DNA of 64,000 nucleotides from positions 62,001 through 126,000 of the forward strand of contig JANYHH010000057.1 in assembly GCA_025359505.1 (NCBI GenBank), read 5' to 3'. A program made the position numbers and the translations under genes. The number at the start of each line of letters is the position of its first letter. Positions within the stretch are counted from its first letter, which is position 1. Source of the stretch: Deinococcales bacterium (lineage in GTDB: Bacteria > Deinococcota > Deinococci > Deinococcales > JAAFIG01). Positions 45,148-56,455 of this stretch are shown piece by piece. Under the pieces are notes generated by a model. The model was given only the letters and a program-made list of their open reading frames with translations, searched no databases and was not told the origin of the DNA.

Positions 45148-46512
45148 ATGGCTGATTACGCGATTCGCGGGGAGATCGTTACTGAAGCGGGTGTGCTGCA
45201 CGATGCTTACCTGACCGTGCGGGGCGAAAAAATCAGCGGTATCTCGAGCGACGCGCCAGACGGTCTCGAGGTGATGGATTCAAGCGGCTGCTACGTGCTG
45301 CCCGGCGGCGTGGACGCGCACGTTCACAGCAACTCGAGTCTCGTCAATCCCGAGGGTTGGACGCGGATCACGCAGTGCGCGGCCGCCGGCGGCGTGACGA
45401 CCATCACCGATATGCCGTATGACTCGCCCGTGCCGACGACGACAGCGGCGCGGTTGCTGGCGAAGGTTGCCGCCCTCGAGCGTGAAGGCGTGGTGGACGT
45501 GGCGCTGTACGGCACGGTGCAGAAATTTGGCGGCGCGGCGCAGGTGGCAGGGCTAGTCAATGCTGGGGCGTGTGCGCTCAAATTATCCACCTATGAAACC
45601 GATCCAGAGCGCTTCCCGAAGATCACTGATCTCGAGATCACGCGAATCTTCGATGCGCTCGCCGAGCTGCCCAACGGCAGAAACGTTCCCGTGGCGTTTC
45701 ACGCCGAGAACATGGAACTGGTCGACGCGCTGGTCGCGGAGTTGCGCCCGCTCGGTGAGGGCGACGGAATTTTGCACGCGCAGAGCCGCCCGGAGTTGTC
45801 GGAGATCACCGATGTTTACAAGTTGCTCGAGTTGGCGCGGGGCAGAGACGTGCATCTGCACATCGCGCATCTGACCGTGCCGCACATCTTCGAGGTGCTT
45901 GAAGCCGCTCGAGCCGATGGGATTCACGTGACGGCTGAGACCTGCATTCACTATTTGATGCTCACTGAGAGCGAGTTGACCCGGCAGCGCGGTTTTGCGA
46001 AGTGCAACCCGCCGCTCAGATCGAGCCAGACGCGGGAAGGCTTGTGGCAGCAGTTGCTCGAGGGGCGAATTGAGTTCGTCACGACCGATCACGCGCCTTG
46101 GTCGCCGGAGCTTAAAAACCGACCTAATATTTTTGACAACAAATCCGGTCTGCCCGGTTTGGAGACGCTACTGCCGCTGCTGATGAGCGCGGGTGTGCTC
46201 GAGCGCGGGTTATCACTCGAGCGTTTCGCCTTGCTGACCGCGACCAATCCGGCGAAATGGGCGAATTTGTACCCGCAAAAGGGAGCGCTGCGGGTCGGGG
46301 CGGACGCGGATGTCGTGATTTTCGATCCTCGAGTTTCGCATACAATCAAGGCATCGGACTCGTACAGCATCGCGCAGCACAGCGTTTACGAGGGCTTAGA
46401 GCTGCGCGGTAAAATTGTGCGGACGATCGCACGGGGTGAAACGGTTTTTGACGGCTCGAGCGTCGTTGGACAGGCGGGGCGGGCGCGGTTCGTGCGTCCG
46501 CAGTTCACGTGA
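45148..46512 (+). CDS. hydantoinase/allantoinase family amidohydrolase (predicted hydantoin-propionate hydrolase)
   Basis: GGVDAHVHSNSS; metal ligand Lys region GACALKLSTYE; VTTDHAPW; genomic context. Confidence 0.85.
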   Translation: MADYAIRGEIVTEAGVLHDAYLTVRGEKISGISSDAPDGLEVMDSSGCYVLPGGVDAHVHSNSSLVNPEGWTRITQCAAAGGVTTITDMPYDSPVPTTTAARLLAKVAALEREGVVDVALYGTVQKFGGAAQVAGLVNAGACALKLSTYETDPERFPKITDLEITRIFDALAELPNGRNVPVAFHAENMELVDALVAELRPLGEGDGILHAQSRPELSEITDVYKLLELARGRDVHLHIAHLTVPHIFEVLEAARADGIHVTAETCIHYLMLTESELTRQRGFAKCNPPLRSSQTREGLWQQLLEGRIEFVTTDHAPWSPELKNRPNIFDNKSGLPGLETLLPLLMSAGVLERGLSLERFALLTATNPAKWANLYPQKGALRVGADADVVIFDPRVSHTIKASDSYSIAQHSVYEGLELRGKIVRTIARGETVFDGSSVVGQAGRARFVRPQFT

Positions 46513-46522
46513 AGGTCAACAC

Positions 46523-47743
46523 GTGAAAATCAATGCAGAGCGCTTTCTGGCGCGGTTCGCGGCGTTGTCCGCGCTCACCGTGCAACCGCCGTTCACGCGC
46601 CGAGCCTTTACTCCAACCTATCTCGAGGGTCGAATGTGGCTCAATGCTCAGATGCTCGAGGCGGGATTGAGCGTTGCATTGGACGCGGGCGCGAACCTGA
46701 TCGGGCGGCGCGAGGGGACGCGCTCGAGTCGCGCTTTGGTGACGGGATCGCACATTGATACGGTCGTCGGTGGCGGGCGCTTTGATGGAATCTTGGGCGT
46801 GTTATCAGCGCTCGAGGCCGCCCAGACATTGGCGGATCACGATGTGCAACTGCACCACGCCCTCGAGATCGTGGATTTTTTGAGCGAAGAACCCAGCGAT
46901 TACGGCGCAAGCTGTATCGGTTCGCGCTCGTGGGCGGGCACGCTGTCTGGCGCGATGCTCAAAGCGACGAACGGGGTAGGGGAGACCCTGAGCGCCGCGA
47001 TCGATCGCATGGGCGGAGATGCTTTGCAACTGGGAACGCCACTGCGCTCGAGCGACCAGCTTGTCGCGTATGTTGAGCTGCACATCGAGCAGGGCAGGGT
47101 ACTGGAATCAGTCGGCGCGGACGTTGGTGAGGTCACGGGGATCGTGGCGATTCAGCGCTTTGAATTGGTGTTCACGGGTCGCGCCGACCACGCGGGCACG
47201 ACGCCGATGCTGATGCGCTCGGACGCACTGGTCGCCGCGTCGCGCTTCACCGCAAATTTAAGTGATGCAGCGCGGCTCGAGGCTGGGATCGTCGCCACGG
47301 TCGGGCGGCTGGCGGTAGCGCCCAACAACTCCAATGTCGTGCCGGGCAGCGTGCGCCTGACTTTTGAAGCGCGGTCGCTCGAGGTGGCAAGACTCGAGGT
47401 GTTCTGCGGTTCAGCCCTCGAGCTGGCCCGTGACGCGGCACGACTCGAGAGCGTCAGGCTCGAGTCGACGCAGGTTTCGACCGCCGCGCCGCTGATCGCT
47501 GACGCTCGCGTCCGCGCCGCGATTCGGCATGCGGCTCAGGGCGTGCATTGCCTAGCGTTGCCGAGCGGCGCGGGTCACGACGCGATGCAGGTTGGGAGAT
47601 TATGTCCGGCGGGCATGATTTTCGTCCCGTGTGAGGGTGGGCGCAGCCACTCGCAGGACGAGTTCAGCACACCCGCGCAGCTCGTGATCGGCGCTCAGGT
47701 GCTGCTCAACACGATCCTCGAGCTTGATCGCGTTTTTGCGTGA
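46523..47743 (+). CDS. M20 hydantoinase/carbamoylase family amidase (predicted N-carbamoyl-L-glutamate hydrolase)
   Basis: ALVTGSHIDTVVGGGRFDGILGVLSALEAAQTL; LSEEPSDYG; YVELHIEQGRVLES; GRADHAGTTPM; SGAGHDAMQ. Confidence 0.9.
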   Translation: MKINAERFLARFAALSALTVQPPFTRRAFTPTYLEGRMWLNAQMLEAGLSVALDAGANLIGRREGTRSSRALVTGSHIDTVVGGGRFDGILGVLSALEAAQTLADHDVQLHHALEIVDFLSEEPSDYGASCIGSRSWAGTLSGAMLKATNGVGETLSAAIDRMGGDALQLGTPLRSSDQLVAYVELHIEQGRVLESVGADVGEVTGIVAIQRFELVFTGRADHAGTTPMLMRSDALVAASRFTANLSDAARLEAGIVATVGRLAVAPNNSNVVPGSVRLTFEARSLEVARLEVFCGSALELARDAARLESVRLESTQVSTAAPLIADARVRAAIRHAAQGVHCLALPSGAGHDAMQVGRLCPAGMIFVPCEGGRSHSQDEFSTPAQLVIGAQVLLNTILELDRVFA

Positions 47744-47920: not shown

Positions 47921-49639
47921 ATGACACAGGCAACCCTCGAGTCCATCCCCATTCCTACCCCAACGCTCGAGCGCCCGATCGTCGCGCAGCGCGGGGGCAC
48001 ACTCCGCACGAAAAGCTGGCGCACCGAAGGGCTGCTGCGGATGCTCGAGAACGTCTTGGAAGTCGGCGAAAACCCACGCAATCTGGTCGTGTACGCCGCG
48101 CTGGGCAAAGCCGCGCGGGACTGGGCGTCCTACGAGCGCATCCGCAAGGCGTTGATTGAGCTGGCCGACGACGAGACGCTGATGATTCAGTCGGGCAAAC
48201 CAATTGGCGTATTTCAAACGCACGCTGGCGCACCGAGGGTGCTACTGGCGAACTCCAATTTGGTGGGGCGCTGGGCGACGACCGAACACTTTTACGAGTT
48301 GTACGCCAAGGGCAAGATCGCGTGGGGTGGGCTGACGGCTGGGTGTTGGCAGTACATCGGCTTTCAGGGCGTGTTGCAAGGAACCTTTGAGACGTTCGGA
48401 GCGCTGGCTCGAGTCGAGTTTGGCGTGGACGACCTGCGCGGGCGGCTGGTGGTGACGGCTGGCTTGGGCGGCATGGGCAGCGCTCAACCGTTGGCGCTGA
48501 CGATGTTGCACGCGGTGAGCATCACGGCTGAAGTCAGCGCGACTCGGGCGTTGGCGCGGCGCGATGCGGGGCTGGTGCAGCACGTCACGAGTGACCTCGA
48601 AGAGGCGCTAAAAATTGCGCTCGAGGCGAGGGACAGGGGAGAAGCGTGCAGCGTTGCATGGATCGGGAATGCGGTCACGCTGCTCGAGACGTTACTCGAG
48701 CGCGGGATCAAGCCCGATGTCGTGACCGACATGACCAGCGCCCACGATGCGCTGCACGGGTACGTGCCGCAGGGTGTGACGCTCGAGGAAGCGGCGGTGT
48801 TGCGCGAGTCGTTTCCGGAGCGCTTGGTGCAGCACAGCCGCGACAGCATGGTGCGGCACGTGCAATTGATGCTCGAGCATCGTGATCGCGGCAGCATCGT
48901 TTTTGATTACGGCAATAACTTGCGCTCCCAAGCCAGAGATCACGGCTTTCCGCAAGCGTTCGAGATCAAGGTGTTCACTGAAAGCTACCTGCGCGATTTA
49001 TTCGCTCGAGGCATTGGGCCGTTCAGGTGGGTGGCGCTGAGCGGCGATCCGGCCGACATCCGCTGGACGGACGCCCTGTTGGAGCGCTTGTATCCAGATC
49101 ATGCCAACATTCAGCGCTGGATCGCGGCGGCGCGGGCCCACGTGCCGTTTCAGGGACTGGCGGCTCGCACCGCGTGGCTCGGACACGGGCAGCGCACGCA
49201 AGTTGCATTGGAGATCAACGTGGCTGTCGCTCGAGGGGACTTGAGCGCCCCAGTCGCTTTCAGCCGCGATCATTTGGACGCGGGGTCGATGGCGCACCCG
49301 AACATCATGACAGAGAATTTGAAGGATGGGACTGACGCGGTGGCGGACTGGCCGATCCTCAACGCGCTGCTGCTGACCTCGAGTGGGGCTGATCTGGTGG
49401 CCGTGCATTCGGGCGGTGGCGGCTACGCGGGGTACATGACCAGCGCGGGCGTGACGACCATTGCCGATGGTAGCGCGGATGCGGCTGAGCGCTTGAAGCG
49501 CGTGATGAACAACGACACGGGCTGGGGCGTGCTGCGTTACGCCGACGCTGGGTATGAGGCTTCGATCCAAACGGCAACGGAGGCTGGGCTGCAAGCGCTC
49601 GGACTCGAGGTCGACGCGGTGAACGAGGGGAGACCATGA
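47921..49639 (+). CDS. urocanate hydratase family protein (predicted thiourocanate hydratase)
   Basis: SGKPIGVFQTHAGAPRVLLANSNLV; VTAGLGGMGSAQPLALTM; VTDMTSAHDALHGYVP. Confidence 0.9.
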   Translation: MTQATLESIPIPTPTLERPIVAQRGGTLRTKSWRTEGLLRMLENVLEVGENPRNLVVYAALGKAARDWASYERIRKALIELADDETLMIQSGKPIGVFQTHAGAPRVLLANSNLVGRWATTEHFYELYAKGKIAWGGLTAGCWQYIGFQGVLQGTFETFGALARVEFGVDDLRGRLVVTAGLGGMGSAQPLALTMLHAVSITAEVSATRALARRDAGLVQHVTSDLEEALKIALEARDRGEACSVAWIGNAVTLLETLLERGIKPDVVTDMTSAHDALHGYVPQGVTLEEAAVLRESFPERLVQHSRDSMVRHVQLMLEHRDRGSIVFDYGNNLRSQARDHGFPQAFEIKVFTESYLRDLFARGIGPFRWVALSGDPADIRWTDALLERLYPDHANIQRWIAAARAHVPFQGLAARTAWLGHGQRTQVALEINVAVARGDLSAPVAFSRDHLDAGSMAHPNIMTENLKDGTDAVADWPILNALLLTSSGADLVAVHSGGGGYAGYMTSAGVTTIADGSADAAERLKRVMNNDTGWGVLRYADAGYEASIQTATEAGLQALGLEVDAVNEGRP

Positions 49640-50757
49640 GGACATTGACGCATGAAGATGTCGAAGCCGCCTGTCTCGGCGGTGGGGTCTACGCCTGCGG
49701 CGGCGGCGGTTGGCTGGATCACGGCTTGCAGAACGGGCATCTGGCGGTCACGCTCGGTCGTCCCAAACTGATGAGCATCGACGAGATTCCGCAGCACGGC
49801 TTGATCGTCACGATCAGCGCGATTGGTGCGCCCGCGTCGGACGATTTCGAGATGTTCCCCAAGGATTACATCAAAGCCTTTGAACTCGTGCGCGACGCGG
49901 CCCTCGAGCTGACTGGCTTACCCGTCGTCGGTGTGATGAACGCGCAGAACGGCTATTCCTCGAGTGTCAACTCTTGGATGCCGGCTGCGGCTTGCGATCT
50001 GCCAGTCGTGGACGCGGCGGGCGATGTGCGGGCCCACCCGACGATCAAGCTTGGCGCTTTTGGTTACGCGGACGACCCGCTGTTCAGGACGGTGCAGGCG
50101 GTCGTCGGCGGCAAGCGCGACCTCGGCGCTTACCTTGAGGTCGTCGCCAAGGGCAGTCTGTTTCGCACCAGCAACATTTTGCGGGCTGCCAGCGTGCAGA
50201 GCGGCGGTTTCATCGCCAGCGCTCGGCTGCCGCTACCTGTGCCAGCAGTTCGCGCTCGAGCGGCCCTCGGGGCGATCACCTGCGCTCTGGATTTGGGGCA
50301 CGCGATGATGGCGGCCGACGGCGCTCGAGCCAAGCTCTCGGCAGTCGTGCAGGTTACAGGCGGCGAGATCGTGCTCGAGGGTGAGGTCACGGCCGCCAGC
50401 CTTCGCACCGATGGCGGTTTCGATCACGCACGGTACAGCGTGACCTCGAGTGGCAAGTCCTCGAGTGGCAAGTCCTCGAGTGCTGGGCGCGAAGCGAAGC
50501 TGTACCTGATGAACGAGTTCATGGCGATGGACGTGAGCGGGGAACGCGTGACGACCTTTCCCGATACGATCAGCGTCTTTGATGCAATGACTGGCTTGCC
50601 TCTAAAATCTGGCGAGATCAAGGTTGGCATGAACGTCGCGGTGCTGGTCGTGCCCTACCAGAAACTGCCCGTCAGTCGCGGCGTCTTGGATAAAAGCGCT
50701 TACCCTGAACTTGAGGCTGCATTGGGGATTGAACTGATGAGGTACATCTTTTTATGA
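49636..50757 (+). CDS. DUF917 / S-methyl-thiohydantoin desulfurase-like protein
   Basis: LGGGVYACGGGGWLDHGL N-terminal motif; AAACDLPVVDAAGDVRAHPTIKLG; ATGA overlap with hydratase. Confidence 0.8.
   Translation: MRTLTHEDVEAACLGGGVYACGGGGWLDHGLQNGHLAVTLGRPKLMSIDEIPQHGLIVTISAIGAPASDDFEMFPKDYIKAFELVRDAALELTGLPVVGVMNAQNGYSSSVNSWMPAAACDLPVVDAAGDVRAHPTIKLGAFGYADDPLFRTVQAVVGGKRDLGAYLEVVAKGSLFRTSNILRAASVQSGGFIASARLPLPVPAVRARAALGAITCALDLGHAMMAADGARAKLSAVVQVTGGEIVLEGEVTAASLRTDGGFDHARYSVTSSGKSSSGKSSSAGREAKLYLMNEFMAMDVSGERVTTFPDTISVFDAMTGLPLKSGEIKVGMNVAVLVVPYQKLPVSRGVLDKSAYPELEAALGIELMRYIFL
50445..50480. repeat. 15-bp tandem repeat CTCGAGTGGCAAGTC x2 plus partial, inside CDS
   Basis: CTCGAG at 50445, 50460, 50475; encodes SSGKSSSGKSSSAG. 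Confidence 0.95.
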
Positions 50758-50767
50758 AGCGACATCC

Positions 50768-52336
50768 ATGACTCCGAGTCGTCCTCCGATCGCCCTAGAT
50801 CAAGGCTTAAGCTTGCGCGAACTGGTGCGCGTTTCCAAAGGCGCGAAGCTCGAGCTGTCCCGCGCCGCATGGCAGCGAGTGCGCGATGCGCGGGGCGTGA
50901 TCGAGCGCGTTTTAGAGTCTCGAGTGCCGACGTATGGCTTGAACACGGGCTTAGGGAGTTTGAAAAAATACGTGATTTCAGAATCGCAGATCGCGGATTT
51001 CAACGCCGATATCGTGATGGCCCACGCGGTCAGCGTGTCGGCGCGGCCCTTGGAGCAAAATGAGGTGCGGGCCGTGATGGCCGCTCGAGTCAGCGGGCTG
51101 GCGCAGGGCGGCAGTGGCGTGCGAACCGAAATGGTCGAGTTGCTGGTGGCGATGCTGAATGCGGGCGTTCACCCCGTCGTTCACAGTGAAAACGCGTCGA
51201 TGGGCGAATCGGACTTGGCGCAGATGGCGCAGATTGGCTTGGTGCTGATTGGCAAGGGCCGGGCCGTCGTCTGGGGCGAGGAGCTGAGTGGGAAAGAGGC
51301 CTTGGAGCGGGCGGGTCTCGAGCCGCTCCAGTTGAAAGCCAAGGAGGGTTTGGGGCTGATCTCTTCAAACGCCTGCACGATCGGCGTGGGCGGGCTGGCG
51401 ATGCGCGACGCGACGCAGTTGCTGGACGCGTTCGACATCGCAGCGGCGATGAGCTTCGAGGGTTTCGCCGCCAACCTCGGCACGCTCGATCCGGCCGTTT
51501 TAGCCGCTCGACCGTTTCAGGGGCAGCAGCGGCGCGGCGCTCACCTGCGCGAATTGCTGAGCGGTAGCGCTCTGTGGGCAGCGCCGCGCAGCTTGCAAGA
51601 CCCGCTGTCGTTTCGCTGCGTGCCGCAAGTTCACGGCGCGTGCTGCGACGCGCTGGCTTACGCCGCTGGGCAGATCGAAATGATGCTGAACGCCCGCACG
51701 GACAGTCCGCTGGTCGTCGCGCAGGACGATTCGATCATCGCCAACGGCAATTTCGAGAGCACGCCATTGGCGCTGGCCTTCGATACGATTCGGCTGGCGC
51801 TGCACCGCGTGATGGTGATGAGTTCGCAGCGCAGCAATAAACTGCTGTGGAGCGACTTTAGCGGTCTGCCGACGGCGCTGGCGGATCAGCACAACGCCCG
51901 GCGCGGCATGACGTTCAACACGATCTCGAGGGCTTTGGCGACGATTGTGGCCAAAGCCTACTCGTACTGCCTGCCCTCGAGCCTGTCGTACACGCCGCAG
52001 GTCACGGAAGGCAGCGACGATTACGCCAGCATGGCTCCGCTGTCCTTAGAGCATTTGCGTAAACTGATGCGTTTGATGCGCTCGGCGCTGGCCATTGAGC
52101 TGCTGTACGCCTGCCACGCAATAGAACTGCGCGGCGTGGTCGGTGCGCTCTCGCCGGCTTTGGAGCGCGTGCGGGCTTGGGTGATGGACAAAGCGGTGAC
52201 GCTCGAGGACAACGCGGTGCTGTCGGAGTTCATGGCAAGCATTGATCTCGAGGAGCTTTTAGAGCTGTCACGGACGCCAATCAGTGCTGAGGCTGATGTG
52301 GTAAACTCATCAGCGCTCGAGGGAGTCGTCGCCTGA
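50768..52336 (+). CDS. HutH/PAL-family lyase without the MIO Ala-Ser-Gly triad (predicted ergothionase)
   Basis: YGLNTGLGSL; aligned MIO site reads ENASMGESDLAQMAQ; C-terminal lyase features ARTDSPLV, GNFESTPLALAFD. Confidence 0.88.
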   Translation: MTPSRPPIALDQGLSLRELVRVSKGAKLELSRAAWQRVRDARGVIERVLESRVPTYGLNTGLGSLKKYVISESQIADFNADIVMAHAVSVSARPLEQNEVRAVMAARVSGLAQGGSGVRTEMVELLVAMLNAGVHPVVHSENASMGESDLAQMAQIGLVLIGKGRAVVWGEELSGKEALERAGLEPLQLKAKEGLGLISSNACTIGVGGLAMRDATQLLDAFDIAAAMSFEGFAANLGTLDPAVLAARPFQGQQRRGAHLRELLSGSALWAAPRSLQDPLSFRCVPQVHGACCDALAYAAGQIEMMLNARTDSPLVVAQDDSIIANGNFESTPLALAFDTIRLALHRVMVMSSQRSNKLLWSDFSGLPTALADQHNARRGMTFNTISRALATIVAKAYSYCLPSSLSYTPQVTEGSDDYASMAPLSLEHLRKLMRLMRSALAIELLYACHAIELRGVVGALSPALERVRAWVMDKAVTLEDNAVLSEFMASIDLEELLELSRTPISAEADVVNSSALEGVVA

Positions 52337-52426: not shown

Positions 52427-53344
52427 ATGAAAAAAGCCGTGATCGCCGTCGCTGGAATCGCTGTGCTGGCCCTAGGACTCGCCACCGCCCAAACCCCAAA
52501 AGTCGTGACCATCGGCTCTAAGGTGGACACCGAAGGCGCGTTGCTGTGCCAGATGACCAAGCAACTCTTGGAAAGTAAGGGCTACAAGGTCACGGATCGG
52601 TGCAGCACCGGCACGACGCCCGTCGTGCGTAAAGCTCTGAAAGAGGGCGAGATCGACATGTACCCCGAGTACACCGGCTCGGCCGCGTATTTCCCGGAGT
52701 ACAAAGACGCGAAGTTCAGTACCAATGACGCCAGAGCATTGTTCGTGCAAGTCAAAACGCTCGAGGCTTCAAACGGCGTCGTCTGGCTGAACCCAGCCCC
52801 CGCCAACAACACGTGGGCGTTGGCTGTGCCGAAGAAGCTGGCCACGGCTGAGAACCTCAAAACCATCGCCGATTTCGCCCGGTATGTCAATGCGGGTAAA
52901 ACCGTCAAACTGGCCGCTAGCCAAGAGTTTGTCGACCGCGACGACGCGCTGAAAGCCTTTGAAAAAGTGTACGGTTTCAAGCTCAAAACCGAGCAACTGC
53001 TGATCCTCCCCGGTGGCAACACCACGCAGACCCAGACGGCCGCGTCGCAAGGCACAAGCGGCGTCAATTTTGCGATGGCGTATGGCACGGACGGCGCAAT
53101 CGGTGCGCTCGGACTGGTCGCGCTGACCGACCCGAAGGGTGCAGTCGCCGTGTACCAGCCAGCGATCACCGTGCGTAAAGTTGTGGCTGACAAAAACCGC
53201 GATCTGGGCAGCATCATCAATCCAGTCTTCGCCAAGCTGACCGAAAGCGTGCTGTCGGATTTGAACGGCAAGATCGCCGTCGGCGGGTTGAGCGCCACCA
53301 AAGTCGCGGGCGATTACCTGCGCTCCAGCGGCGCGATCAAGTAA
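52427..53344 (+). CDS. OpuAC/YehZ-type osmoprotectant ABC transporter substrate-binding protein
   Basis: signal MKKAVIAVAGIAVLALGLATAQ; IGSKVDTEGALLCQMTKQLLESKGY; EIDMYPEYTGSA; GAGGAG SD. Confidence 0.92.
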   Translation: MKKAVIAVAGIAVLALGLATAQTPKVVTIGSKVDTEGALLCQMTKQLLESKGYKVTDRCSTGTTPVVRKALKEGEIDMYPEYTGSAAYFPEYKDAKFSTNDARALFVQVKTLEASNGVVWLNPAPANNTWALAVPKKLATAENLKTIADFARYVNAGKTVKLAASQEFVDRDDALKAFEKVYGFKLKTEQLLILPGGNTTQTQTAASQGTSGVNFAMAYGTDGAIGALGLVALTDPKGAVAVYQPAITVRKVVADKNRDLGSIINPVFAKLTESVLSDLNGKIAVGGLSATKVAGDYLRSSGAIK

Positions 53345-53358
53345 ATCCACTTTTAACG

Positions 53359-53391
53359 CGGGGGCAAGCTTTTTGCCCCCGATTTTTTTTT
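53359..53391 (+). terminator. intra-operon rho-independent terminator after substrate-binding protein gene
   Basis: CGGGGGCAA-GCTTT-TTGCCCCCG-A-TTTTTTTTT. Confidence 0.93.
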
Positions 53392-53430
53392 AGCTCATCA
53401 CCGCGTCGCTTGCAGGTTTTGGGGGAAAAC

Positions 53431-54789
53431 GTGACCGAGACTCGAGGATTGAAGCTGAACGCCATCACCGTGTTGGGCGGCGCGATCGGCGTGTTGAGTG
53501 CGTCGCTACCGTGGTTGCTGTTTCGCCCAAACCGTTTGGTGCAGGGGGATGCGTTGGCAGTCTGGCAACTGAGCGGCCCGTGGCACTGGCTGGCGCTCGT
53601 GGCGTGGGCGCTGATTGGCTTGAGCGGTCTTTGGCGCTCGAGTCTGCGCGGTTACGTCGGAACGGCGCTGCTGGTCGGCGCGATTGCCGCGATCGCCCTG
53701 ACGATCTCCAGCAACGCTGCACTGCTGTTGTCAGGTGCGGGTGAGTTCGCTCGAGTCTCGGTTTCGGGCGGCGTCTGGCTGATGCTGCTGGCGATCTACA
53801 TCGCGGCGTTCGGCGTGGGGACTGAAATGAAGTTCGCCGCGCCGATGGTGTTGCTGGCGCTGCTGGCGACCTTTGTGCTCGGCGCGTACTCGAGGCTCGG
53901 GCCAGCGGTGGAATACGCGGCTGTCAGCGACACGTTTTTCACCGAGCTACTGCGCCACTTCGCTCTGTCCATCGCAGCCGTGATCGTGGCTGTCGTGATC
54001 GGTGTGCCGCTGGCGCTGCTGGCCGTGCGAAACTCGAGGCTCGAGGGGCTGGTGCTGGGCGGCGCGGGATTGCTGCAAACGATTCCCAGCTTGGCGCTGT
54101 TCGGCGTGCTGCTCGCGCCGCTGGCGTGGGTCGGGCGCTCGGTCAGCGTCGGCGCGGTACTGGCGATTATTGTGATCGGTGCGCTGCTGAGCTTTGCAAT
54201 CTCGAGGTTGCCCGTCTCTGGATTGAGCGGCGTGCTGCCCGTGCGATTCGCGCTTGTCGGTGTTACTGCGCTGGTGGCGCTGCCGATGCTGGCGGTGCTG
54301 ATCTACAACGCGCTGATCGGCAATCTGGGGGGGCTGGCTGCGTTCGTGCAACCCGCTGCGTTACTCTCATCCGCCGGAATTCGCGGCATCGGCGCTGCGC
54401 CCGCACTCGTGGCGCTCACCATCTACGCGCTGCTGCCAATCGTCGTCAATACCTTTGTCGGCATGAAAAGCGTGCCGGAAGGCGTGATCGACGCAGCAAA
54501 GGGCATGGGCATGAACCAGCGACAGGTTTTTTTGCGGGCAGAATTACCAATCGCGATTCCGGCGATGCTGACTGGCTTGCGCGGCGCGACGGTGCTGAGT
54601 TTCGGGTTGACGACGGTCGCGGCGCTGATCGGCGGCGGCGGGCTGGGATTTTTCATCCTGCGCGGCGTGGACGCCAACGCGCCGGATCTGATTCTGGTCG
54701 GGGCTGCGCCGATCGTGATTCTGGCGTTGGTGATCGATGCATTGCTCAGGGCATTGTCGGCTGTGGTCACGCCCAAAGGATTGCGATGA
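53431..54789 (+). CDS. osmoprotectant-type ABC transporter permease (YehY-like, N-terminal TM extension)
   Basis: LLQTIPSLALFGVLLAPLAW; AKGMGMNQRQVFLRAELPIAIPAMLTGLRGATVLSFGLTTVAALIGGGGLGFFI. Confidence 0.9.
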   Translation: MTETRGLKLNAITVLGGAIGVLSASLPWLLFRPNRLVQGDALAVWQLSGPWHWLALVAWALIGLSGLWRSSLRGYVGTALLVGAIAAIALTISSNAALLLSGAGEFARVSVSGGVWLMLLAIYIAAFGVGTEMKFAAPMVLLALLATFVLGAYSRLGPAVEYAAVSDTFFTELLRHFALSIAAVIVAVVIGVPLALLAVRNSRLEGLVLGGAGLLQTIPSLALFGVLLAPLAWVGRSVSVGAVLAIIVIGALLSFAISRLPVSGLSGVLPVRFALVGVTALVALPMLAVLIYNALIGNLGGLAAFVQPAALLSSAGIRGIGAAPALVALTIYALLPIVVNTFVGMKSVPEGVIDAAKGMGMNQRQVFLRAELPIAIPAMLTGLRGATVLSFGLTTVAALIGGGGLGFFILRGVDANAPDLILVGAAPIVILALVIDALLRALSAVVTPKGLR

Positions 54790-55724
54790 TCGAATTTATT
54801 GGCGTCAGTAAGAGTTACAACGCGGGCACGGTGATCCTCAACGACATCAGCCTGACCGTGGAGCGCGGCGAACTGGTGATCCTGATTGGCCCCAGCGGCT
54901 GCGGTAAAAGCACGCTGCTGCGTCTGGTGAATCGCATGATCGCGCCCTCGAGCGGGCAGATTCTGATCGGTGGCAAGGACAGTGCGCTGCTCGATCCCGT
55001 CGAGTTGCGGCGCGGCATCGGCTACGTGATTCAGAGCATTGGGTTGTTTCCGCACATGACGATTTTTGAGAACGTCGAGGTCGTCCCGAGCATCCTCGGT
55101 ACGCAGAAAGCTGAGCGCCGCTCGAGGGCCGAGTCCCTGCTGCACACCGTCGGATTGGAGCCGGGTGTGTACGGTTCACGCTATCCTCGAGCGCTCAGCG
55201 GCGGGCAGCAGCAGCGCGTTGGCATTGCCAGAGCATTGGCGGCCGATCCGGACGTGATGCTGATGGACGAGCCGTTCAGCGCGGTCGATCCGATCACGCG
55301 GGGCGGTTTGCAGGACGAGTTTCTGAGGATCAAAACCGAAATCAACAAAACCATTGTTTTTGTGACGCACGACATCGACGAGGCAATCAAGATCGGTGAT
55401 CGCGTCTGCGTCTTGAACGCGGGCGCGGTGCAGCAATTCGACACGCCCGAGGCGCTACTGCGTGCGCCGGCCAACGATTTCGTGGCCAGCTTCCTCGGGG
55501 AAGACCGCGAGTTGAAGCGCCTCTCCTTGATGCCCGTCACCGCATTGATGCGAATACCGCCCAGCAATGCGGGGGAGGCTCGAGGTCAGGTTCTGGCAAG
55601 CTCGAGTGCCAGAGATGCGCTGTCGCAACTGATGGGCGCGAGTGGGCGCGAGTTGAATGTGATGGACGTTGCGGGCAACGTGATCGGACTGATCGCCATG
55701 AGCGATTACGGGCGCAACCCGTGA
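54786..55724 (+). CDS. osmoprotectant-type ABC transporter ATP-binding protein
   Basis: GPSGCGKSTLLRLVNRMI; QSIGLFPHMTIFENVEVVP; LSGGQQQRVGIARALAADPDVMLMDEPFSAVDPITR; CBS-like C-terminus; ATG 54786. Confidence 0.95.
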   Translation: MIEFIGVSKSYNAGTVILNDISLTVERGELVILIGPSGCGKSTLLRLVNRMIAPSSGQILIGGKDSALLDPVELRRGIGYVIQSIGLFPHMTIFENVEVVPSILGTQKAERRSRAESLLHTVGLEPGVYGSRYPRALSGGQQQRVGIARALAADPDVMLMDEPFSAVDPITRGGLQDEFLRIKTEINKTIVFVTHDIDEAIKIGDRVCVLNAGAVQQFDTPEALLRAPANDFVASFLGEDRELKRLSLMPVTALMRIPPSNAGEARGQVLASSSARDALSQLMGASGRELNVMDVAGNVIGLIAMSDYGRNP

Positions 55725-56455
55725 CGCTGGCTCGAGCCGCACTGCTGCCTGTACTCTGGGTTGCGGCGTTTGCGCTGTTCGCGTGGCAGGACGGCTGGCG
55801 CTTGGCGCTCACAGCACTCTTTCCGAACAGCCGCAATCCCGTCTTTGAACGCGCCACGTTGCTCGAGTTGGTCGGGCAGCATTTGGCAATCGCGGGGCTG
55901 GCGTCGGTGCTGGTGCTGATCGTCGGCTTGCCGCTGGCGGTTTGGGCGACGCGCCCGAGCGGGCGGCCGTTCCTGCCGCTGATCGCCAATACCGTCAGCA
56001 TCGGTCAGACCTTCCCGCCGACGGCCGTGCTGTTTTTGATGCTGCCGATTCTGGGCTTCGGCGCTCAAGCGGCGGTGCTGGCGCTGTTTTTGTACGGCTT
56101 GCTGCCCACGGTCAGCGGCGCGTTGCAGGGCTTGGAAACCGTGCCCGCCGATGCTTTAGAGGCGGGCATCGGCAGCGGCATGAGCGAGCGTCAGCGCTTA
56201 CTGCGGCTCGAGTTGCCGCTGGCACTACCGAGTCTGCTGGCGGGGGTACGCACCACGTTGATTCTGGTGATGGCCACGACGACGATTGCGCCGCTGGTCG
56301 GCACGGGCGGTCTGGGCGTGCCGATCATCGGTGGGCTGGGCAACGACAATCTGGCGCAGGTGTTGCAGGGCGCTCTGCCGGTGGCGATGCTGGCGCTATT
56401 GACGGATTACTCGATGCGGACGTTAGAGCGGCGCTTGACGCCGTGGCGCTCCTGA
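55721..56455 (+). CDS. osmoprotectant-type ABC transporter permease (YehW-like)
   Basis: TVSIGQTFPPTAVLFLMLPILGFG; LEAGIGSGMSERQRLLRLELPLALPSLLAGVRTTLILVMATTTIAPLVGTGGLG. Confidence 0.92.
   Translation: MTLARAALLPVLWVAAFALFAWQDGWRLALTALFPNSRNPVFERATLLELVGQHLAIAGLASVLVLIVGLPLAVWATRPSGRPFLPLIANTVSIGQTFPPTAVLFLMLPILGFGAQAAVLALFLYGLLPTVSGALQGLETVPADALEAGIGSGMSERQRLLRLELPLALPSLLAGVRTTLILVMATTTIAPLVGTGGLGVPIIGGLGNDNLAQVLQGALPVAMLALLTDYSMRTLERRLTPWRS

Follow-up and report, generated by a model that had tools for sequence, protein, structure and literature searches.

A probable ergothionase lacking the MIO triad, encoded beside ergothioneine-catabolism-type genes

Within the 64,000-nucleotide stretch of DNA analysed here (the window), one gene encodes a homologue of histidine ammonia-lyase (HAL, HutH) from which the Ala-Ser-Gly (ASG) triad of the MIO cofactor has disappeared, and the question arises whether such a protein is still a HAL or is rather an ergothionase. 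The latter enzyme is already known and has been reported to lack MIO (PMC13405746), its Treponema denticola structures (6S7J and 6S7Q) being those of Maurer et al. 2019 as cited in that paper; the catabolic pathway to which it belongs (ert) is likewise known, and is represented by the NCBIfam ert models. The gene and the remnant of its cofactor loop are located as follows:

50768–52336, forward strand: candidate ergothionase (ergothioneine trimethylamine-lyase) of the MIO-less aromatic-lyase family, 522 amino acids, matching PF00221 and 6S7J
51197–51214, forward strand: MIO-loop remnant Ser144-Met-Gly-Glu-Ser-Asp149, with ASG shortened to Glu147-Ser148 (codon table and alignment)

In a profile search, PF00221 spans the whole protein (421 bits, cut-off 27.3), which falls under the cut-off for each of the HutH, PAL and TAL equivalogs; against the HutH model TIGR01225 it scores 349 bits, the cut-off being 539. 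The MIO-loop stretch reads VVHSENASMGESDLAQMAQ, and the loss of the triad is observed directly, codons 51203–51211 (GGC GAA TCG) specifying Gly146-Glu147-Ser148 within an intact ORF of 522 residues. An earlier note on this DNA had paired ASG with these three residues without gaps; the codons and the loss of the triad stand, while the pairing proves to be off by one. Indeed, in an alignment of the window lyase and 32 further lyases, the conserved S-x-G...D of the loop is formed by Ser144, Gly146 and Asp149, and the homologous positions run S-[M/V/I/L]-G, E-S and D in turn; by this alignment the ASG is one residue shorter (Glu147-Ser148) and the window clade one residue longer just upstream (ENAS), two compensating length changes that the gap-free pairing of ASG with GES would mask. 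The same shortening, without the upstream insertion, is seen in T. denticola ergothionase (RSSIGEGDI, motif SIGEGD) and in Burkholderia arboris (GSIGEADI, motif SIGEAD).

The corrected register leaves unchanged the further claim that MIO cannot form. A scan of the entire window lyase for [A/T/C/S][S/G]G returned no triad (no ASG, TSG, CSG or SSG), so that MIO backbone cyclisation is left without a substrate and no different segment supplies an ASG; (A/S)SGD is present in 19 of the 19 MIO-type sequences compared. GESD recurs in relatives at 46–51% identity (as SLGESD in Deinococcus sp. KNUC1210 and as SVGESD in two Chloroflexales MAGs closely related to each other), and is therefore a conserved change and not a sequencing slip.

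Residues of the active site were compared in 33 sequences, 14 MIO-less and 19 of the MIO type; the relevant positions of the window lyase are:

50933–50935, forward strand: Tyr56, equivalent to Tyr53 of P. putida HAL and Tyr53 of the T. denticola chain, invariant in 33/33
50963–50965, forward strand: Lys66 of the Tyr loop, equivalent to Lys63 of the T. denticola chain (alignment)
51362–51373, forward strand: Ser199-Ser-Asn201-Ala202, in place of the Asn-Gly-Thr-Gln of MIO enzymes (alignment)
51605–51607, forward strand: Leu280, where HAL has Tyr280 (14/14 MIO-less sequences with Leu, 19/19 MIO sequences with Tyr)
51839–51841, forward strand: Lys358, equivalent to Lys355 of the T. denticola chain (alignment)
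52016–52018, forward strand: Asp417, corresponding to Glu414 of HAL and Glu411 of T. denticola (alignment)

The Lys66 position is occupied by Lys in 11/11 lyases of the window clade, the T. denticola/Burkholderia type and the alphaproteobacterial ert-cluster type, and by Ala, Ser, Gln or Glu, never Lys, in the 19 MIO enzymes; Ser-x-Asn-Ala replaces the HAL Asn-Gly-Thr-Gln in most of the 14 MIO-less lyases. Lys358 is common to the window clade, the T. denticola/Burkholderia group and Azospirillum, is also found in one of the 19 MIO sequences, and is missing from the alphaproteobacterial SIGCAD group. At the Asp417 position all four members of the window clade have Asp and the other 29 sequences Glu; the window clade carries an extra Glu414 three residues before Asp417. 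As to the catalytic residues of ergothionase, most of the candidates, picked by conservation and not by published numbering, are present: with respect to the 6S7J chain, Tyr53, Lys63 and Lys355 are kept (Tyr56, Lys66 and Lys358), the exception being the active-site Glu411, which becomes Asp417. Such a set of residues suits an enzyme with the Tyr base retained and the MIO chemistry replaced by residues that hold a thioimidazole betaine, although the role of each lysine, Lys66 and Lys358, in the window lyase is one that we infer.

The likeness to T. denticola ergothionase thus extends from the MIO-free fold and the one-residue-short loop SxGE-x-D (SIGEGD, compared with SMGESD) to the equivalents of Tyr56, Lys66, Ser199/Asn201/Ala202, Leu280 and Lys358; the two proteins differ in belonging to separate clades, in the Glu/Asp exchange and in overall sequence (about 26% identity over the fold alignment). 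Burkholderia-type ergothionase is represented in the literature by the HME13 enzyme; this group (B. arboris, Paraburkholderia and Sinorhizobium meliloti homologues) is MIO-less and shares the same Lys and Asn/Leu signature, but has its own motif (SIGEAD or SVGQAD), an N-terminus resembling a signal peptide and 29–31% identity to the window protein. The alphaproteobacterial ert-cluster lyases (Shinella, Ochrobactrum, Rhizobium sp. SL42) are also MIO-less, keep Lys66 and lie beside genes for ErtD, ErtE, desulfurase and hydratase; they differ in their SIGCAD motif, the lack of Lys358 and 25–30% identity. With HutH the window lyase shares the fold, Tyr56, Gln277, Arg283 and Phe329, whereas the ASG triad, Tyr280 and Glu414 of HutH are all changed.

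Other MIO-less lyases were encountered in different surroundings. Azospirillum sp. B510 pAB510a (L071, 5968–7521) encodes one with SIGADDL that shares 39% identity with the window protein and has no ert gene in the flanking 6 kb on each side. In Klebsiella pneumoniae plasmid pKPN-065 (L049, 8920–10452) and Sodalis praecaptivus pHS1 (L073, 5878–7407) the MIO triad is wholly removed (GSVG-Y-LIATAH) from lyases encoded beside a betaine-type ABC transporter; a similar match occurs on many Klebsiella plasmids. The pKPN-065 lyase is without the Tyr-loop Lys and lies within a hut cluster (hutU, hutI, hutG, hutC), and for these reasons may act on hercynine (histidine betaine), splitting off trimethylamine and feeding urocanate into Hut.

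The genes surrounding the window lyase are:

45148–46512, forward strand: hydantoin-5-propionate amidohydrolase, ErtD-like (NF058539 426.0 and NF058538 423.8 bits, cut-offs 650 and 600)
46523–47743, forward strand, start codon approximate: N-carbamoyl-L-glutamate amidohydrolase, ErtE-like (NF058540 500.4 bits, cut-off 520)
47921–49639, forward strand: thiourocanate-hydratase-like protein of the urocanase family (NF058530 791.3 bits, cut-off 930)
49636–50757, forward strand: thiohydantoin-desulfurase-like protein, DUF917/S-Me-THD family (NF058529 401.9 bits, cut-off 440)
52427–53344, forward strand: OpuAC substrate-binding protein, OsmF type (NF049931 340 bits, cut-off 400)
53359–53390, forward strand: terminator-like hairpin and T run, lying after the binding-protein gene and ahead of the permease gene, the region's strongest stem
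53410–54789, forward strand: ABC permease, betaine/choline type (PF00528, TIGR03416)
54786–55724, forward strand, start approximate: ABC ATPase, ProV type (TIGR01186 317.2 bits, cut-off 326.6)
55721–56455, forward strand: second ABC permease, betaine/choline type (PF00528)

The order, which is directly observed, is hydantoinase, carbamoylase, hydratase-like, desulfurase-like and, fifth, the MIO-less lyase, followed by the betaine-type ABC transporter; the five enzyme genes, all on the forward strand, are spaced from a 4-base overlap up to about 180 bases. For all four ert-type enzymes of the window an ert equivalog is the best NCBIfam model, yet the score stays under the curated cut-off: the two ErtD models rank best of 52 families, NF058540 ranks best of 20, NF058530 (791.3 bits) exceeds both hutU (699.2) and S-methyl thiourocanate hydratase (693.2), and the S-methyl model NF058532 gives the desulfurase-like protein just 277.1 bits compared with 401.9 for NF058529. 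The five-step ergothioneine catabolism pathway has reportedly been reconstituted by the Seebeck laboratory; the window operon resembles it in holding all five enzyme types side by side, and differs in the divergence of its sequences, all under the NCBIfam cut-offs, and in its OsmF-type transporter.

The gene order is conserved elsewhere. On the contigs of the two Chloroflexales MAGs the same five enzymes follow one another in the same order, again ahead of a betaine-type ABC transporter, and on a Deinococcus plasmid the same five are found behind an IclR regulator, the ErtE homologue there exceeding the curated cut-off (562.6, cut-off 520); in the Chloroflexales and Deinococcus clusters, too, the plain thio models score better than the S-methyl ones. 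In B. arboris, whose ert cluster lies over the cut-offs (hydratase 1037, cut-off 930; desulfurase 605, cut-off 440), the MIO-less lyase is encoded about 1.5 kb beyond the hydratase and desulfurase genes, and MIO-less lyases adjoin ert genes in Shinella, Ochrobactrum and Rhizobium sp. SL42.

Partial or modified clusters were also noted. A solitary thiohydantoin-desulfurase-like gene, 64% identical to that of the window, occupies positions 1375–2505 (L058) of a 4 kb contig (C365) with no further ert gene, from a genome of the same order that is 58% complete (G016). An ert-like cluster on a Lichenihabitans psoromatis plasmid (L047, 8884–16676) comprises DUF917, glutathione S-transferase, Zn-hydrolase, urocanase and hydantoinase, with a lyase that keeps ASG; since MIO is retained, a primary or secondary amine is its likely substrate. 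Agrobacterium tumefaciens Ach5 pAt (L045, 8995–18487) carries DUF917, GST, Zn-hydrolase, urocanase, a molybdopterin S/N-oxide reductase, an amidohydrolase and a betaine ABC transporter, with no lyase within the 19 kb read.

As for the transporter of the window, the closest solved structure to its binding protein is OsmF (4wep, 274 bits), the ergothioneine transporter EgtUC reaching 111 bits; with this greater proximity to OsmF, ergothioneine uptake by the transporter is no more than plausible. The hairpin at 53359–53390, with a nine-T run, could serve to keep the binding protein at a higher level; terminator-like hairpins in the region are no more numerous than in shuffled sequences.

The window's genome is 92% complete, and within it the window lyase is the only PF00221 protein; neither a second urocanase nor EgtD was found, nor any imidazolonepropionase (HutI) above cut-off. 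On these grounds neither histidine degradation nor ergothioneine synthesis is likely; the standard Hut pathway appears to be absent, and the host would have to import ergothioneine. A hut-pathway role was considered for the urocanase homologue of the window and rejected, there being no HAL and no HutI above cut-off. Across 111 genomes of the phylum, the lyases inspected outside the host genome keep (A/S)SG.

In the tree, 14 of the 14 MIO-less lyases lie on one side of a single branch (93/88), with the HAL and the phenylalanine-/tyrosine-aminomutase sequences opposed to them, which indicates an old subfamily and not a local loss. The window clade is supported at 100/100 and the ert-cluster MIO-less lyases form one side of a branch at 85/68, while forcing the window clade together with the T. 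denticola/Burkholderia ergothionases costs 7.6 log-likelihood units (p-AU 0.05). The tree is unrooted and is compatible with a single loss of MIO, or even with its primary absence. A recent loss within the host lineage was rejected, given that the same-order HALs examined keep (A/S)SG at 31–36% identity and that the window protein groups with the MIO-less relatives from Chloroflexales and Deinococcus. Scans of viral contigs for further relatives returned MIO-type HALs only, or nothing.

The gene is thus very probably an ergothionase that opens a complete pathway from ergothioneine to glutamate, the substrate and the reactions being those that we infer; this agrees with the reading of the earlier note, and neither of the refuting findings named there has come up. 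Over HutH this reading is favoured along two independent lines, by the full set of ergothioneine-catabolism genes adjoining the lyase, and by Lys66, Ser199-x-Asn201-Ala202 and Leu280, all common to 6S7J and foreign to MIO enzymes, together with Lys358. Ergothioneine would be imported by the OpuC/OsmF-type ABC transporter; in the lyase, by homology, Tyr56 would take the beta proton, Lys66 and Lys358 would bind or polarise the sulfur of the thioimidazole, the carboxylate, or both, and trimethylamine would be eliminated to give thiourocanate without the MIO cofactor, the electrophile presumably being dispensable because a quaternary ammonium leaves unaided. The urocanase homologue would then hydrate thiourocanate to thiohydantoin propionate, the DUF917 enzyme would take off the sulfur, and hydantoinase and carbamoylase would release glutamate. 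Against the ergothionase reading we count the ert-type scores somewhat under their cut-offs, Asp417, the tree (p-AU 0.05) and the OsmF-like binding protein.

Some of these points could instead suit a MIO-less lyase of another substrate, a thiohistidine betaine related to ergothioneine (its sulfonate, its S-methyl derivative or a partly methylated form): the sub-branch is divergent, with Asp417 and the extra upstream residue, and separate NCBIfam S-methyl models exist for hydratase and desulfurase. The plain thio models are nevertheless clearly better in the window (791 against 693 and 402 against 277 bits) as well as in the Chloroflexales and Deinococcus clusters, and such a substrate seems quite improbable. 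An unlikely but somewhat more credible proposal is that the window clade forms a MIO-free lyase class of its own: Asp417, or else the Glu414 peculiar to the clade, would replace the active-site Glu in a variant ergothionase mechanism on a thiohistidine betaine, and the MIO-free lyases as a whole would be an ancient branch running parallel to the MIO enzymes and not derived from them.

Structure prediction bears on the remaining alternatives. The AlphaFold model from five input sequences (pLDDT 72, pTM 0.79; pLDDT 44 with three sequences) matches HAL (TM 0.82/0.84) and ergothionase 6S7J (0.81/0.85) about equally, and residues 54–69, 142–147 and 408–420 have confidence below 50, so that it cannot place Asp417 or Glu414 in the Glu site; the overlay on T. 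denticola ergothionase proposed earlier therefore shows no more than an intact fold. The equally good fit of the model to HAL and ergothionase, and the presence of HALs among the best PDB sequence matches, would agree with a normal HAL, working without MIO or building it from other residues; this is very hard to reconcile with the lack of any alternative triad, Leu at HAL Tyr280, a score of 349 bits out of the 539 needed for HutH, the lack of other Hut genes above cut-off in the genome and the sulfur-specific neighbours. Least probable of all, to the point of being negligible, is a decaying hutH pseudogene with the motif loss as its first sign: a normally essential cofactor site has indeed gone, but the ORF is intact, its operon position is conserved, Tyr, Gln, Arg and other active-site positions are kept, and the recurrence of the same substitutions in another phylum, in relatives at 46–51% identity, already contradicts it. 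The intact PF00221 fold agrees with the earlier note's view that the rest of the fold looks intact.

Genes of this divergent branch are as a rule misannotated: public records label them 'histidine ammonia-lyase' or 'aromatic amino acid ammonia-lyase', and no ergothionase model was matched in the NCBIfam profile search. A recent survey found ergothionase to be rare, with the remark that divergent homologues had been left uncounted (PMC13405746). What is new here is the divergent branch, its taxonomic spread, the corrected register and a usable sequence signature. The absence of (A/S)SG, Leu for HAL Tyr280, Ser-x-Asn-Ala for Asn-Gly-Thr-Gln, the Tyr-loop Lys and a DUF917 neighbour together provide a signature with which divergent ergothionases can be recounted, and the trait is extended to Chloroflexales, to a Deinococcus plasmid and to the lineage of the host genome.
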